A DNA stretch of 64,000 nucleotides. It comes from Streptomyces spectabilis. Lineage in GTDB: Bacteria > Actinomycetota > Actinomycetes > Streptomycetales > Streptomycetaceae. The position numbers and the translations under genes were made by a program. Below, in pieces: positions 39,564 to 49,038 of the stretch. The DNA lies in assembly GCF_008704795.1 (NCBI RefSeq), contig NZ_CP023690.1:3296501-3360500 (forward strand), written 5' to 3'. The notes beneath the pieces are model-generated. The model was not told the DNA's origin. It saw only the letters and a list, made by a program, of their open reading frames with translations, and did no database searches. How positions within the stretch are numbered: position 1 is the first letter of the stretch; each line of letters starts with the position of its first letter.

Positions 39564-40277
39564 TCATCGTGTCAGGAGGAGTCCGCAACTGTAGGCGCGG
39601 GCGTGACCGATGCCGTCGGAGAGTGCAGTGACAAACGCTCCAGGGTTGGTGACGGTCAGCGATCCGCGCAGCTCGGCCCGGGCGATCCTCAGCCTCTTGT
39701 GGGGGGACGGGCTGGAGACCGGGGGCAGCATGTGCACCGCGACGTCGTCGGGGTCCGTGGTGACGCCGACGCGGCCGGGCTCCCGACCGTCGCCGAAGTG
39801 ACGCCTGAGCCACTTCCTGACCCCGTCGGGCTTGGTGTGGGCCACCCGCTTTCCCCGGACCATCCGGCCGTCCGGGCCGTCCTGCGGCTTGTTGTAGGTG
39901 GGGTTGACGACGGTGCGGAACACGACGGCGTCGCCTACCCGGAAGGTGCGGTCGACGGTGATGAGGTACGGCTCGTCCCGCAGCGCGGCCCTCGGCACGT
40001 GCCCCCAGTCCGCGGGCACCCGGGACTGCACGACCAGGACGAGAGCGGCCTCCTTGAGGTCGAGGGTCCAGGTCGAGAGGACGCCCATTTGCGCGCGGGC
40101 GTCACGGCTGCCCTCCGCCACCCCCCACCCCTGGAAGCCGCTCATCACCGTGCGGTGCATGTCCTGGGCGTCGACGAGGGACTTCGCGACGTAGGGATGC
40201 CGAGCGTCCAGGGTCAGGACGGAGTGGCTGGCGACGAACCGGCCCGGGGTGATGGTGGCTCGCGAGGAGTCGTTCAC
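39564..40277 (-). CDS. cas6e: Cas6e crRNA-processing endonuclease (CasE)
   Basis: 237-residue type I-E Cas6. It cleaves the repeat hairpin in the pre-crRNA and stays bound to the 3' handle. The family's catalytic histidine region is visible as [10 protein letters not shown] (His41), and the C-terminal glycine-rich RNA-binding loop as [14 protein letters not shown]. The GTG start at 40277 overlaps the cas5 stop (GTGA). It is the last gene of the Cascade operon, and nothing resembling cas1 or cas2 follows. Confidence 0.95.
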
Positions 40278-41122
40278 GGAATGACGTCCCATCCGGTGGC
40301 GTTCGGGGCGATCGTGACGCGTCGGCGAATCTCCCAGCGGGTGGTGTGCTCCGGACGTGACGCGTCGAAGCTAACCGGCTGGTCCTGTACGGGGGTGGCG
40401 CCTCGGGTGGAGGCGGGGACCTGGAACCACGCCCAGGGCCGCCTCGCCGGGTCGGCGGTTCCGTCGGGCCCGGGCAGCAGTTGCTTGGCACGGAAGGCCT
40501 CCTCCAGGTCACCGCCCTCGATACCGGCGGTGAGGGTCCCCGACGGAGGACAGGACTTGCGGCCCAGCCACAGCAGCCGTCGCGGCCGCTCCAACGCCTT
40601 GGCCACGCCCTCCAGGAGGGCCAAGTCCTGGTGCTGGAGTCCCACGAGGAACGTGGCATCGGCGAGGTACCAGCGCTCGGTGATGAGCGCCGTGCGGGCC
40701 AGCTCGCCGGAGACGAGGACGCCGGAGACGGGGTCCGAGGCAATCTTCTTGGGTGCGCCGTACCAGTCGGCAAGCCGGTGGTGGCCGAAGCGGTCGCCGG
40801 TGGCCGCGTCGAGGCTCGTGGAGGCCGCGGCGGCGCGCCGGTGGTCAGTGATCAGGTCGCGGGGGCGCAGCGGGTACCGGCCCGCGCCGACGGTGTGGTA
40901 GTCGCGGACGGGAGTTCCGGGATGGTCGGCGCGCACCCCGAAGACGGTCTGCGCCAGCTCCCCCAGGTCCTCGTCCCGCGGCAGCCCCAGGGCCGCGGCG
41001 CACAGTCCGATCACGGCCGACTTGGTGGGGCGGCTGTGCGAGTCGCGGCGCGCGGCGAAGCGGGAGATCGTGCCCCAGGACTGCAGGGGCGCGGCCAGCC
41101 TGATGAGCAGGACGTGCGTCAT
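40274..41122 (-). CDS. cas5: Cas5e, Cascade subunit (CasD)
   Basis: 282-residue RAMP protein that binds the 5' handle of the crRNA in Cascade. The N-terminus [13 protein letters not shown] is the family signature, followed by [19 protein letters not shown] 41122 overlaps the cas7 stop (ATGA). Confidence 0.96.
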
Positions 41123-48500: not shown

Positions 48501-49038
48501 CGTCCCCGGCGTCGAACGCCCCGGCCTGAAGAGCGGCTACTGCACGCGGCTCGCTCACGCCGTACTCCGGATCGCCGCCGGAAAGCGGGCGGAAGCCGAC
48601 CTCGTCGCGCTGGAGGATGAGGCACGCGCACGCGGCGCCACGGAGCCGCTGCTCAGCACAGGCCTCGCGCTGCTCCACACCGTGCTCGGCGCCCCGGACC
48701 GCGCGCTACGCGCGGCGGCGCGCCTGACGGATCCGGTGGAGCGGGCCACGGCTCTGACCACGGTGGCCGCGCACTTGGCGGGCGTCCCAGCCCACCTAGA
48801 CGTGGCCGCCACGACCGGCGACGCCTGGGCAATCTCGTTGCTGCGCGTTCTCGCGCGCCAAGCGGTGCCGGGCCACGCGGGCGACGACACCACGGTGAGG
48901 GACGTGCTCCGCGATGTCCTCAGCACCAGCGGCTGGTACGAGGCCTTACCGGTCCTCGCCCGGACCGCCCCCGAGGCCGTATCGGCGGTTGCCGACGTCC
49001 TCGCCCAGCATCGGCAGGCGCGGCAAGGGGAGCCGTGA
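45541..49038 (+). CDS. STAND-type NTPase with N-terminal HTH and helical repeats
   Basis: 1,165-residue signal-transduction ATPase. Residues about 40-85 form an HTH (VMLAERFGISRSAVGAWMTGR). The NTPase core has Walker A GPPWAGKT near 180, Walker B LLLVVDGLDED near 268 (NACHT-like DGLDE), and an LVSSRW sensor-type motif near 302. The remaining 750 residues are Ala/Leu-rich helical repeats (TPR/HEAT-like), the usual sensor of STAND proteins. A TTA codon lies at 48946-48948 in frame, so translation may depend on bldA. ATG 45541 has AGGGAG 8 nt upstream; GTG 45630, after AAGGGGG, is an alternative that would drop 29 residues. The gene is divergent from a Cascade operon that has no cas3, which suggests a link: Cascade-triggered signalling or abortive infection. 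It could also be an unrelated regulator. Confidence 0.9.
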   Translation: MLSKPGEPRLRWSQKPGRLSGMSGQGGDTVSREATKKLGTQLKELYQAVRTDHRNVTYVMLAERFGISRSAVGAWMTGRYPPDGELVTKYLAVVAYLESKSPDKPLPPGVWRRAIKKAQDEGVRNQGKRPPRSGPPAVRPFRYPHTAPQRVARDLIGRDAELDALAELSRRGPSYSALYGPPWAGKTALLAAFVTGHVPSEVDVISYFVQWSSSTNEAQKFLQTMVAQLDLLVGNKRSVPGDEASLFALYEQAVQTSSERGRSLLLVVDGLDEDAAAQPGQQSIASLLPKRPPPGLRVLVSSRWHPPLPANLDGDHPLQSAAIIPGFRPSPIGHSLRGAASEDLRALLECPDGREVIGLLALARGGLSYRSLIELMELGERAKPPAPVDLERMLRNVAGRGVAPEDLEPDTYVLAHEELYRTATQLLEGRTTTDLTQRLHHWADDYRNKQWPPTTPLYLLNGYPELLRGTGDTARFTTFALDHRRLLRLADHARTDLALASLDHVTRMSQGLDALASAAASRFFLERERRPVPRDVLRALARAGDTAWARSLALSPRDPASKATRLIAVTQALVETARPGATDIAREAANWAQRARYQDALLAPAEEPDTEGIVAQVTVVLASAGAPDEAIRLLDTIDVCSPGNFASTSDAAGRLLDSHPAFATRLLDELCDEADHLAYEADEGSAVAVEMWAAVAAADPGRTDPVHHRMAEFGRWLDVTSAGLAAVDCPAQAASVLAKTRPDDARALVDAALRRMDGLLNAPAGDRARETLARLVRALLDVDGKPDRARALLDGAPPEATARARMTLADEPDEPNELLARMRHLADIGDGPRARLVLAQATRQAGGTAAGANPIPWLPLLAGALAHHGTPWLTEAHTLLARASDPCLSLPVRILTSASLAHADAGRSGQALRYAEEAEDVVGDVDFTDPRAPLVRGLVAQAFAHAGQAQQAARWSAPDAGRRSGRARRHDRRVALAVEVGLAPEAIVPGVERPGLKSGYCTRLAHAVLRIAAGKRAEADLVALEDEARARGATEPLLSTGLALLHTVLGAPDRALRAAARLTDPVERATALTTVAAHLAGVPAHLDVAATTGDAWAISLLRVLARQAVPGHAGDDTTVRDVLRDVLSTSGWYEALPVLARTAPEAVSAVADVLAQHRQARQGEP

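Follow-up and report, generated by a model that had tools for sequence, protein, structure and literature searches.

A minimal type I-E variant of Streptomyces, in which Cascade is accompanied by a STAND NTPase and small membrane proteins, has been described in reviews recounting Shmakov 2018 (PMC12231136, PMC8730458). These accounts already proposed a programmed-death function for the variant and left open what role a cas3-less Cascade tied to a death-type NTPase might have. The Cascade-STAND pairing itself is already known, from a PADLOC model as well as from these reviews, and the first-pass annotation of the present DNA was correct in recalling literature on it. The locus analyzed here shares with that variant a Cascade without cas1, cas2, and cas3, a STAND protein, and a small membrane protein. 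Unlike the module described as being without an array (PMC8730458), it has arrays as well as a self-directed guide, the target and PAM of which are conserved, and we found no published account of a self-directed mini-array guide in cas3-less STAND I-E loci.

CRISPR-repressed toxins of the CreTA/CrePA type offer a second comparison (PMC8501985, PMC12737573, PMC12055562). As in the window, by which we mean the whole 64,000-nt stretch of Streptomyces spectabilis DNA that was analyzed, degenerate repeats flank a spacer, and a PAM-flanked target precedes a small gene located next to cas8. Unlike CreTA/CrePA, the Cascade of the window lacks Cas3 and is joined to STAND and ORF1, and its candidate toxin, ORF2, represents a new small hydrophobic family with no match in Pfam or NCBIfam. 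Cas3 has also been lost from the type I effectors I-E2, which carries an HNH on Cas5, and I-F4 (PMC12669027); there HNH replaces the nuclease, whereas none of the five Cascade proteins encoded at 39564-49038 has a nuclease match in Pfam. We propose that the cas3-less Cascade of the window probably serves an abortive-infection module as an RNA-guided self-repressor. Its apparent guidance to its own locus, read from sequence, and the repressor role that this suggests had gone unseen in the first-pass annotation, as had ORF1, ORF2, the mini-array guide, its target, and two distant arrays described below.

Gene content of the locus

A complete type I-E Cascade operon faces a STAND protein made of HTH, NTPase, and repeats (Table 1). 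The first-pass annotation had reported five full-length Cascade genes with overlapping starts and stops and no cas3, cas1, or cas2, and both observations hold: the genes overlap end to end from cas6e to cse1, and a search of the whole one-contig 9.8-Mb genome returned no match for Cas3_HD, Cas1, or Cas2e and one for Cse1. The Cse2 model matches residues 260-396 of a longer ORF containing cse2, and comparison of Cse1 with solved structures gave distant matches only. A single 27.9-bit match to PF22590 (Cas3-like helicase C-domain) was judged to be a generic helicase, since this model also matches 14/14 control genomes. No second cas3 was found elsewhere in the genome, and the Cas3 helicase-nuclease, a canonical feature of type I-E, was not detected in it; among the 17 STAND-bearing Streptomyces genomes described below, seven do carry Cas3, in other loci. 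A phage-type integrase is found at 50477-52060.

Table 1. Positions of features in the window
Feature	Coordinates	Strand	Remarks
CRISPR array	35873..36145	+	29-nt repeat in 5 identical copies; 4 spacers, each 32 nt
Leader copy with one intact repeat (39331-39359)	39210..39359	+	cas6 side
cas6e	39564..40292	-	Pfam and PADLOC model matches
cas5e	40274..41122	-	Pfam and PADLOC model matches
cas7e	41119..42474	-	Pfam and PADLOC model matches
cse2 (cas11e)	42471..43043	-	Pfam and PADLOC matches; start inferred from overlap with cse1
cse1 (cas8e)	43043..44677	-	Pfam and PADLOC matches; start inferred from alignment of 14 relatives
Mini-array	44714..44803	-	Two repeats, degenerate; beside cse1
Second mini-array repeat	44714..44742	-	Stem CCCCGC/GCGGGG intact
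Mini-array guide (spacer)	44743..44774	-	32 nt
First mini-array repeat	44775..44803	-	Degenerate; 8-nt handle ATGCATCG
Hairpin	44919..44953	-	13 bp, directly 3' of ORF2; without T-run; not in terminator-scan list
ORF2	44957..45100	-	47 aa, TTG start, hydrophobic; candidate toxin
Putative protospacer of mini-array guide	45218..45249	-	15/17 first bases paired, 20/32 overall
PAM	45250..45252	-	AAC, beside protospacer
ORF1	45275..45454	-	59 aa; basic helix following a long hydrophobic one (RRRDARATLTILVRRR)
STAND NTPase	45541..49038	+	1,165 aa; HTH, P-loop NTPase, helical repeats
Decayed leader and repeat	49560..49715	+	STAND side

On the side where cas3 would be expected, domain models and the predicted structure agree with the initial reading of the gene as HTH, NACHT-like NTPase, and helical repeats. 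The 1,165-aa ORF matches the HTH_3 and P-loop NTPase/NACHT models of Pfam and the PADLOC model STAND_TPR (PDLC01173; 2.3e-233), and its predicted structure has a long helical arm. Translation may start at GTG 45628 rather than at 45541, since residues 1-29 are unconserved and modeled with low confidence. G185, K186, and the D269-D272 region are invariant, and we take these to be the Walker motifs. Structural matches include SAMD9, CED-4, Apaf-1, and Avs4, all with low TM-scores. The P-loop NTPase and the long helical arm are shared with Avs and its kin among anti-phage STAND proteins. Avs-type STAND proteins carry an N-terminal enzymatic effector domain; unlike them, the protein of the window has only the HTH upstream of its NTPase domain, both by Pfam and in the predicted model. 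Any effector function presumably comes from a partner, for example ORF1.

Both small membrane-protein candidates found near STAND, ORF1 and ORF2, are present in the window, and their hydrophobicity and helices point to a membrane location. ORF1 has no Pfam match above the cut-off. Its family was matched in 40/392 genomes, 19 of them strongly (at least 69 bits), and 17 of these 19 carry it at the Cascade locus, while the other two (G034 and G051) have no Cascade within 14 kb. This restricted spread rules out ORF1 as a general Streptomyces protein.

The mini-array guide and its targets

Read on the minus strand, in the direction of the cas genes, the guide of the mini-array pairs with a site in its own locus from spacer base 1, immediately beside AAC; the plus-strand reading gave no seed match and was rejected. 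Of the first 17 bases, 15 pair; the mismatches fall at positions 6 and 10. Type I Cascade flips out base 6 of the guide-target pairing, and the remaining seed (positions 1-5 and 7-11) is paired at 9/10 positions, with the mismatch at 10. The pairing reach of CreTA likewise covers positions 1-5 and 7-11 (PMC8501985), and AAN is the PAM reported for the I-E system of S. avermitilis (PMC12231136). None of 5,000 shuffled window guides scored above 13/17. The target sits between ORF1 and ORF2, upstream of ORF2, where a consensus scan, which covers high-GC promoters poorly, detected no consensus promoter.

Mini-arrays were recognized in 38/50 related loci and not in the other 12, and the self-guide is therefore not universal. 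An own-locus AAN site with a seed of at least 8/10 was found for 34 of the 38 guides and of at least 9/10 for 30, and 25 beat all 200 of their own shuffles, 12 of the 38 (L057, L096, L098, and nine co-directional loci) having been chosen after or while seeking matches. Although the search required only AA, the PAMs of the 34 matched guides were AAC in 31, AAG in two, and AAT in one. Furthermore, position 6 was mismatched in 19/26 non-redundant pairs, against 17/260 for positions 1-5 and 7-11. The four failing guides belong to L063, L070, L081, and L082, the last of which passes if an ATG PAM is allowed. A free-scan guide search in array-less or co-directional loci stayed near the shuffled level, except for guides aimed at the cse1 leader. 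Among 17 cas3- or HD-bearing control loci (cas3-cse1 junction), in a guide scan that left out L105, L106, and L108, only L107 had a seed of at least 9 with at least 12/17 paired. A similar guide pair thus occurs in L107, which is a canonical locus, and self-guides extend beyond the STAND clade.

Targets fall into two classes: those of the first, to which the window belongs, precede a very small hydrophobic ORF in a CreTA-like design, and those of the second lie in the cse1 leader. The second class, assigned by position, comprises 12 loci (L058, L059, L060, L090, and eight of the nine co-directional ones) and resembles CreR, a cas-regulating RNA (PMC12737573); unlike for CreR, there is no cas3 at these loci to restrain, except in L060. 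Such targets would fit a guide that merely tunes expression of the locus, with ORF2 non-toxic and no addiction, as would L057, L096, and L098, which have the target but no ORF2. We nevertheless regard this as an unlikely account of the window, where the target is not in the cse1 leader as in CreR-like targeting. Between it and cse1, which lies downstream, are about 540 nt that include ORF2 and a hairpin that may act as a terminator. ORF2 is also conserved across related loci and co-occurs with its target class: its family was found in 19/25 divergent loci whose mini-array aims elsewhere than the cse1 leader and in 0/16 other divergent loci, as counted with a profile built from the ORF2s of these same loci, and was absent from six of the 25. 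A translated protein toxin in a Cascade-repressed slot is moreover known from the I-E locus of C. rodentium (PMC12055562).

STAND and ORF1 in the place of cas3

The distribution of the NTPase was compared with that of Cascade, and the NTPase accompanies this Cascade. STAND was present in 46/48 loci selected by Cse1. Of 26 Streptomyces genomes that carry this Cse1 clade, STAND is present in 17, and the other nine have Cas3 or an HD-only gene in the same slot. In this sample, STAND plus ORF1 (a membrane protein of about 58 residues) and cas3/HD do not overlap at the cse1 slot; in locus L060, though, STAND and a full-length cas3 stand together. In a quick-method tree, STAND-linked Cse1 forms one clade of 52 rows with a support of 99, next to cas3-linked rows, and this clade spans several actinomycete genera. 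By distribution and tree, STAND and ORF1 have taken the genomic place of cas3.

Occurrence of the NTPase without Cascade had been named at the outset as what would refute a link between the two, and the outcome is mixed. STAND_TPR matches occur in 142/392 genomes, most of them lower-scoring kin; for four high-scoring copies (G166, G066, G178, and the second one of G173), the retrieved sequence contains no Cascade. These matches, together with Avs4 among the low-scoring structural hits, could indicate that STAND and ORF1 are an anti-phage module in their own right, one that recognizes a phage protein as Avs does and hitch-hikes beside Cascade. We consider this rather improbable, as ORF1 goes with the Cascade-linked form in 17 of its 19 strong-match genomes, STAND accompanies nearly all Cse1-selected loci, and the STAND-linked Cse1 has a single-clade origin. 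Far less credible still is a decaying CRISPR locus whose mini-array matches itself by chance. The missing cas1-3, the decayed leader copy on the STAND side, and a few broken loci (STAND of G012 is split between L109 and L051, and cse1 of G171 is in two pieces) would agree with decay, but the window has five open, overlapping genes, the clade extends over several genera, and the shuffle tests and the position-6 pattern across loci contradict it.

Proposed mechanism and the CRISPR arrays

In the self-repressor model that we favor, the mini-array, which immediately precedes cse1, would be processed by Cas6e into a crRNA-like guide, and this guide, judging from pairing in the window and in other loci, would lead Cascade to the AAC-flanked site between ORF1 and ORF2. 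Cascade bound there would block transcription of ORF2, a tiny hydrophobic protein and probable toxin; in other members, a guide aimed at the cse1 leader would, from the target position, silence the cas operon instead. By analogy with CreTA/CrePA, ORF2 would be released when Cascade is lost, inhibited, or drawn off by other crRNAs, and STAND with ORF1 would likely form a second killing arm. With the conserved self-directed guide, the cas3-less Cascade has both an RNA to partner with and a DNA site to target, which would explain why Cascade is kept intact without a nuclease. More tentatively, and with somewhat less than even confidence, we suggest that Cascade, freed from DNA cutting, has become a guarded molecule whose occupancy of its own locus reports integrity; its loss, through anti-CRISPR attack or crRNA load, would free the small membrane toxin, and STAND-ORF1 would add a further death arm of NLR-like type. 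Where members have no arrays nearby, self-control and sensing may then be the whole job of Cascade. If true, CreTA addiction, CreR autoregulation, and STAND immunity would be joined in one locus, and a CRISPR effector would have been turned from cutting to guarding.

The arrays bear on another explanation, a signaling switch, in which Cascade, directed by array crRNAs, would bind phage DNA and, once in the R-loop, activate STAND directly; STAND would then kill the cell, perhaps via ORF1, and the self-guide would be only housekeeping. This we hold to be a possible but doubtful reading, slightly behind the guarded-Cascade one. Occupation of the cas3 slot by STAND and ORF1 favors it, as do arrays with intact repeats: those at 35873-36145 are identical and spaced at 61 nt, as first noted (0 expected by chance), with a leader-like sequence upstream from about 35740, and 23 further copies of this repeat stand in two arrays at a distance of 2.2 Mb. 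Against it, the retrieved stretches of 17/26 first guide loci contain no array (arrays may lie elsewhere), and the spacers of the window's own genome gave no clear phage match, the best covering 28 nt of a Microbacterium phage (E 0.09) and, at E 0.9, MuF-like genes in phages of Nocardia and Rhodococcus. Plasmid matches were numerous, of low identity, and are probably other CRISPR arrays. In favor of signaling, a spacer of L077 matches Streptomyces phages at 29/29 positions, the match being preceded by AAC in the single phage inspected, and G386, taken as the genome of L077, has no Cas3 or Cas1 match.

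Cascade operon and its genomic setting

Profile searches confirmed the five-gene Cascade operon of the first-pass annotation, its genes lying end to end and each matching its own family. The 1,165-aa STAND ORF facing them gave matches to HTH and P-loop NTPase families, as that annotation had anticipated, and its predicted model (mean pLDDT 80.4) runs from an HTH through the NTPase into a long helical arm; Foldseek matches to this model included SAMD9, CED-4, Apaf-1 and Avs4, whose TM-scores were low. The local arrays were also recovered with identical intact repeats, and array leader copies flank the locus on either side, the STAND-side copy being decayed. 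A methyltransferase region is likewise partly duplicated, a phage-type integrase lies downstream, and no tRNA was found in the 64-kb window.

Features of the window, the rest of its genome, and related loci
Feature	Position	Note
Methyltransferase region, partial duplicates	34498-35271 / 36491-38899	74-90% identity
Array leader, partial duplicates	35530-35892 / 49320-49700	74-90% identity
CRISPR repeats, identical	35873-36145	n=5
Single repeat	39331	
Cascade genes	39564-44677 (-)	five
Mini-array	44714-44803 (-)	
Guide spacer	44743-44774	32 nt
ORF2	44957-45100 (-)	47 aa
Guide target	45218-45249	
ORF1	45275-45454 (-)	59 aa
STAND NTPase	45541-49038	1,165 aa
Integrase, phage-type	50477-52060	
Distant arrays (L125)	G000:C1:5543739-5546505	two
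Cas2e match (L049)	6524-6997	G337 locus
Full-length cas3 (L060)	3843-6908	
Self-guide pair (L107)	about 5716 and 6074	
Phage repeats (L124)	390-684	Cumberbatch

Searches of the complete genome (one contig, 9.8 Mb) returned a single Cse1 copy and no match for Cas3_HD, Cas1 or Cas2e, extending to the whole genome the earlier statement that the operon lacks all three genes. The only PF22590 match (27.9 bits) fell in a 1,211-aa frame, and this model also matches 14 of 14 control genomes. As far as sequence can show, cas3 is gone from both locus and genome, STAND and ORF1 occupy its place, and the genome has no known way of adding spacers. Nevertheless, Cascade has crRNAs to load, because two further arrays, built on the repeat of the local array and totalling 23 repeats and 21 spacers (32 nt each), lie 2.2 Mb away from the genome's single Cascade operon. 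In a locus of genome G337, a Cas2e match adjoins an array; that genome gave no Cas1 match.

Association of STAND and ORF1 with Cascade

A Cse1 search yielded 48 named loci, spread over Streptomyces, Actinomadura, Nocardiopsis, Allonocardiopsis and Actinacidiphila, with STAND in 46 and ORF1 in 45, in support of the suggested link between this NTPase and the Cascade. ORF1 (55-64 aa) adjoins STAND in divergent orientation and consists of a hydrophobic helix followed by RRRDARATLxIL. Between the two genes, 20 of 45 loci carry a CGGAAA element that is possibly an operator for the STAND HTH; its distance upstream of ORF1 is often about 113 nt.

Of 392 Streptomyces genomes, 26 encode a Cse1 of the window-type clade, scoring >380 bits against 157 for the next best: 17 carry STAND and ORF1, and 9 carry Cas3 or an HD-only gene (3 genomes, frames of about 300-356 aa) at the divergent position, with neither STAND nor ORF1 beside it. 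Seven of those 17 encode a Cas3 elsewhere. In a quick tree of 70 Cse1 rows, the STAND-linked ones came out as a single clade of 52 with a support of 99, its neighbours being cas3-linked and HD-only rows. One locus outside the 392 genomes (L060) is exceptional within the STAND clade, carrying STAND together with a full-length cas3 that lies between ORF1 and cse1. The sister Cascades of L111, L112, L113 and L087, in which an HD-only Cas3 of ~300-356 aa replaces the full protein, are another reduced I-E form.

The PADLOC model STAND_TPR matched 142 of the 392 genomes, 20 of them (window's included) above 600 bits. The proposed tie of the NTPase to Cascade held for 17 of these 20, where a copy sits beside Cascade; for the copies in G166, G066 and G178 and the second copy in G173 (~12 kb from the first), the fetched stretches contained no Cascade. 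In G012, the STAND gene is split: its two parts lie at loci L109 and L051, separated by 1.7 Mb, and the first part adjoins ORF1 and cse1. The published link between cas3-less Streptomyces I-E loci and STAND, mentioned in the first-pass annotation, was confirmed: both the gene association and a proposed death/dormancy role are already in the literature.

A guide directed at its own locus

Besides ORF1, ORF2 and a hairpin, the STAND-cse1 interval contains a spacer enclosed by two degenerate repeats. This guide matches an AAC-preceded site in the same interval at 15 of 17 positions (20 of 32 overall; mismatches at 6 and 10). None of 5,000 shuffled guides exceeded 13 of 17, nor did any other site in the 64-kb window. 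Judged from base identity, the guide is shown to fit its own locus under Cascade's pairing rules.

We examined 50 loci for mini-arrays and recognised one in 38 and none in 12. Of the 50, 41 are divergent (37 of the 48 Cse1-selected loci, the window, L038, L039 and L050); the other 9, all co-directional, comprise L037 and 8 Cse1-selected loci. With guide starts fixed by the 8-nt handle, and several pairs already spotted by eye beforehand, 23 of the first-recognised 26 guides had seeds of at least 8/10. Across all 38, including 12 chosen with matches in view (L057, L096, L098 and the nine co-directional loci), an own-locus AAN site gave seeds of at least 8/10 in 34 and at least 9 in 30, and 25 beat all 200 shuffles. 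The remaining guides are those of L063, L070, L081 and L082, the last reaching 10/10 if ATG is taken as PAM. PAMs of the 34 were AAC (31), AAG (2) and AAT (1); for the S. avermitilis I-E system, PMC12231136 reports an AAN PAM. Mismatches at positions 1-12 of 26 non-redundant pairs numbered 0, 0, 1, 1, 1, 19, 4, 2, 4, 1, 3 and 11, and position 6 is free to mismatch. This agrees with Cascade, which flips each sixth base of the pairing. It agrees also with haloarchaeal CreTA, where position 6 is likewise free (PMC8501985). Among 17 cas3- or HD-bearing control loci, a comparable pair was found only in the canonical I-E locus L107, between cas3 and cse1 (9/10 seed, 14/17, AAG PAM).

In 25 divergent loci whose mini-array is not directed at the cse1 leader, the target lay between ORF1 and the guide in 22. 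ORF2, a small hydrophobic protein of the type W..ELVLIVVAAVV..DxLW, was present in 19 of these 25 (weakly in L068) versus none of the 16 remaining divergent loci, and its profile found none in canonical loci L100-L108; as the profile was built from these same loci, the absences are the informative part. The cse1 leader was the target in L058, L059, L060, L090 and 8 of the 9 co-directional loci. The first class resembles CreTA or CrePA (CRISPR-repressed toxins) and the second CreR, a cas-regulating RNA (PMC12737573); a translated CreT is described for an I-E locus of C. rodentium in PMC12055562.

We propose that the guide is processed from the mini-array and that Cascade carrying it would repress at the own-locus target; ORF2 would act as a toxin, release would occur when Cascade fails, and STAND-ORF1 may serve as a death arm. 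Direct activation of the NTPase by target-bound Cascade, as first suggested, seems to us a tentative reading, somewhat doubtful; the readings are non-exclusive, so their probabilities need not sum to one. For these loci, a self-directed guide is mentioned neither in the consulted portions of PMC12231136, PMC8730458, PMC12669027, PMC10910872, PMC12737573, PMC8501985 and PMC12055562 nor in the literature search results; an earlier notice, for instance in Shmakov 2018 or Makarova 2020, is possible.

Arrays and phages

Seventeen of the first-recognised 26 guide loci lacked an array of at least three repeats in the fetched stretch; their arrays may lie elsewhere in the genome, as the two distant ones do here. 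The window genome's own spacers gave no clear phage match. A spacer of the S. hydrogenans locus (L077) matches Streptomyces phages at 29/29, its target being preceded by AAC in Celia, the one phage inspected, and G386, taken as its genome, gave no Cas3 or Cas1 profile match. Such a match suggests that STAND-locus arrays, where present, can be directed at phages. An unannotated stretch of Streptomyces phage Cumberbatch itself contains six repeats resembling those of type I-E, and related phages, among them Eklok, Vondra and Ignacio, gave matches at a corresponding place; the repeats might be a phage-borne mini-CRISPR array feeding or misleading the host Cascade.
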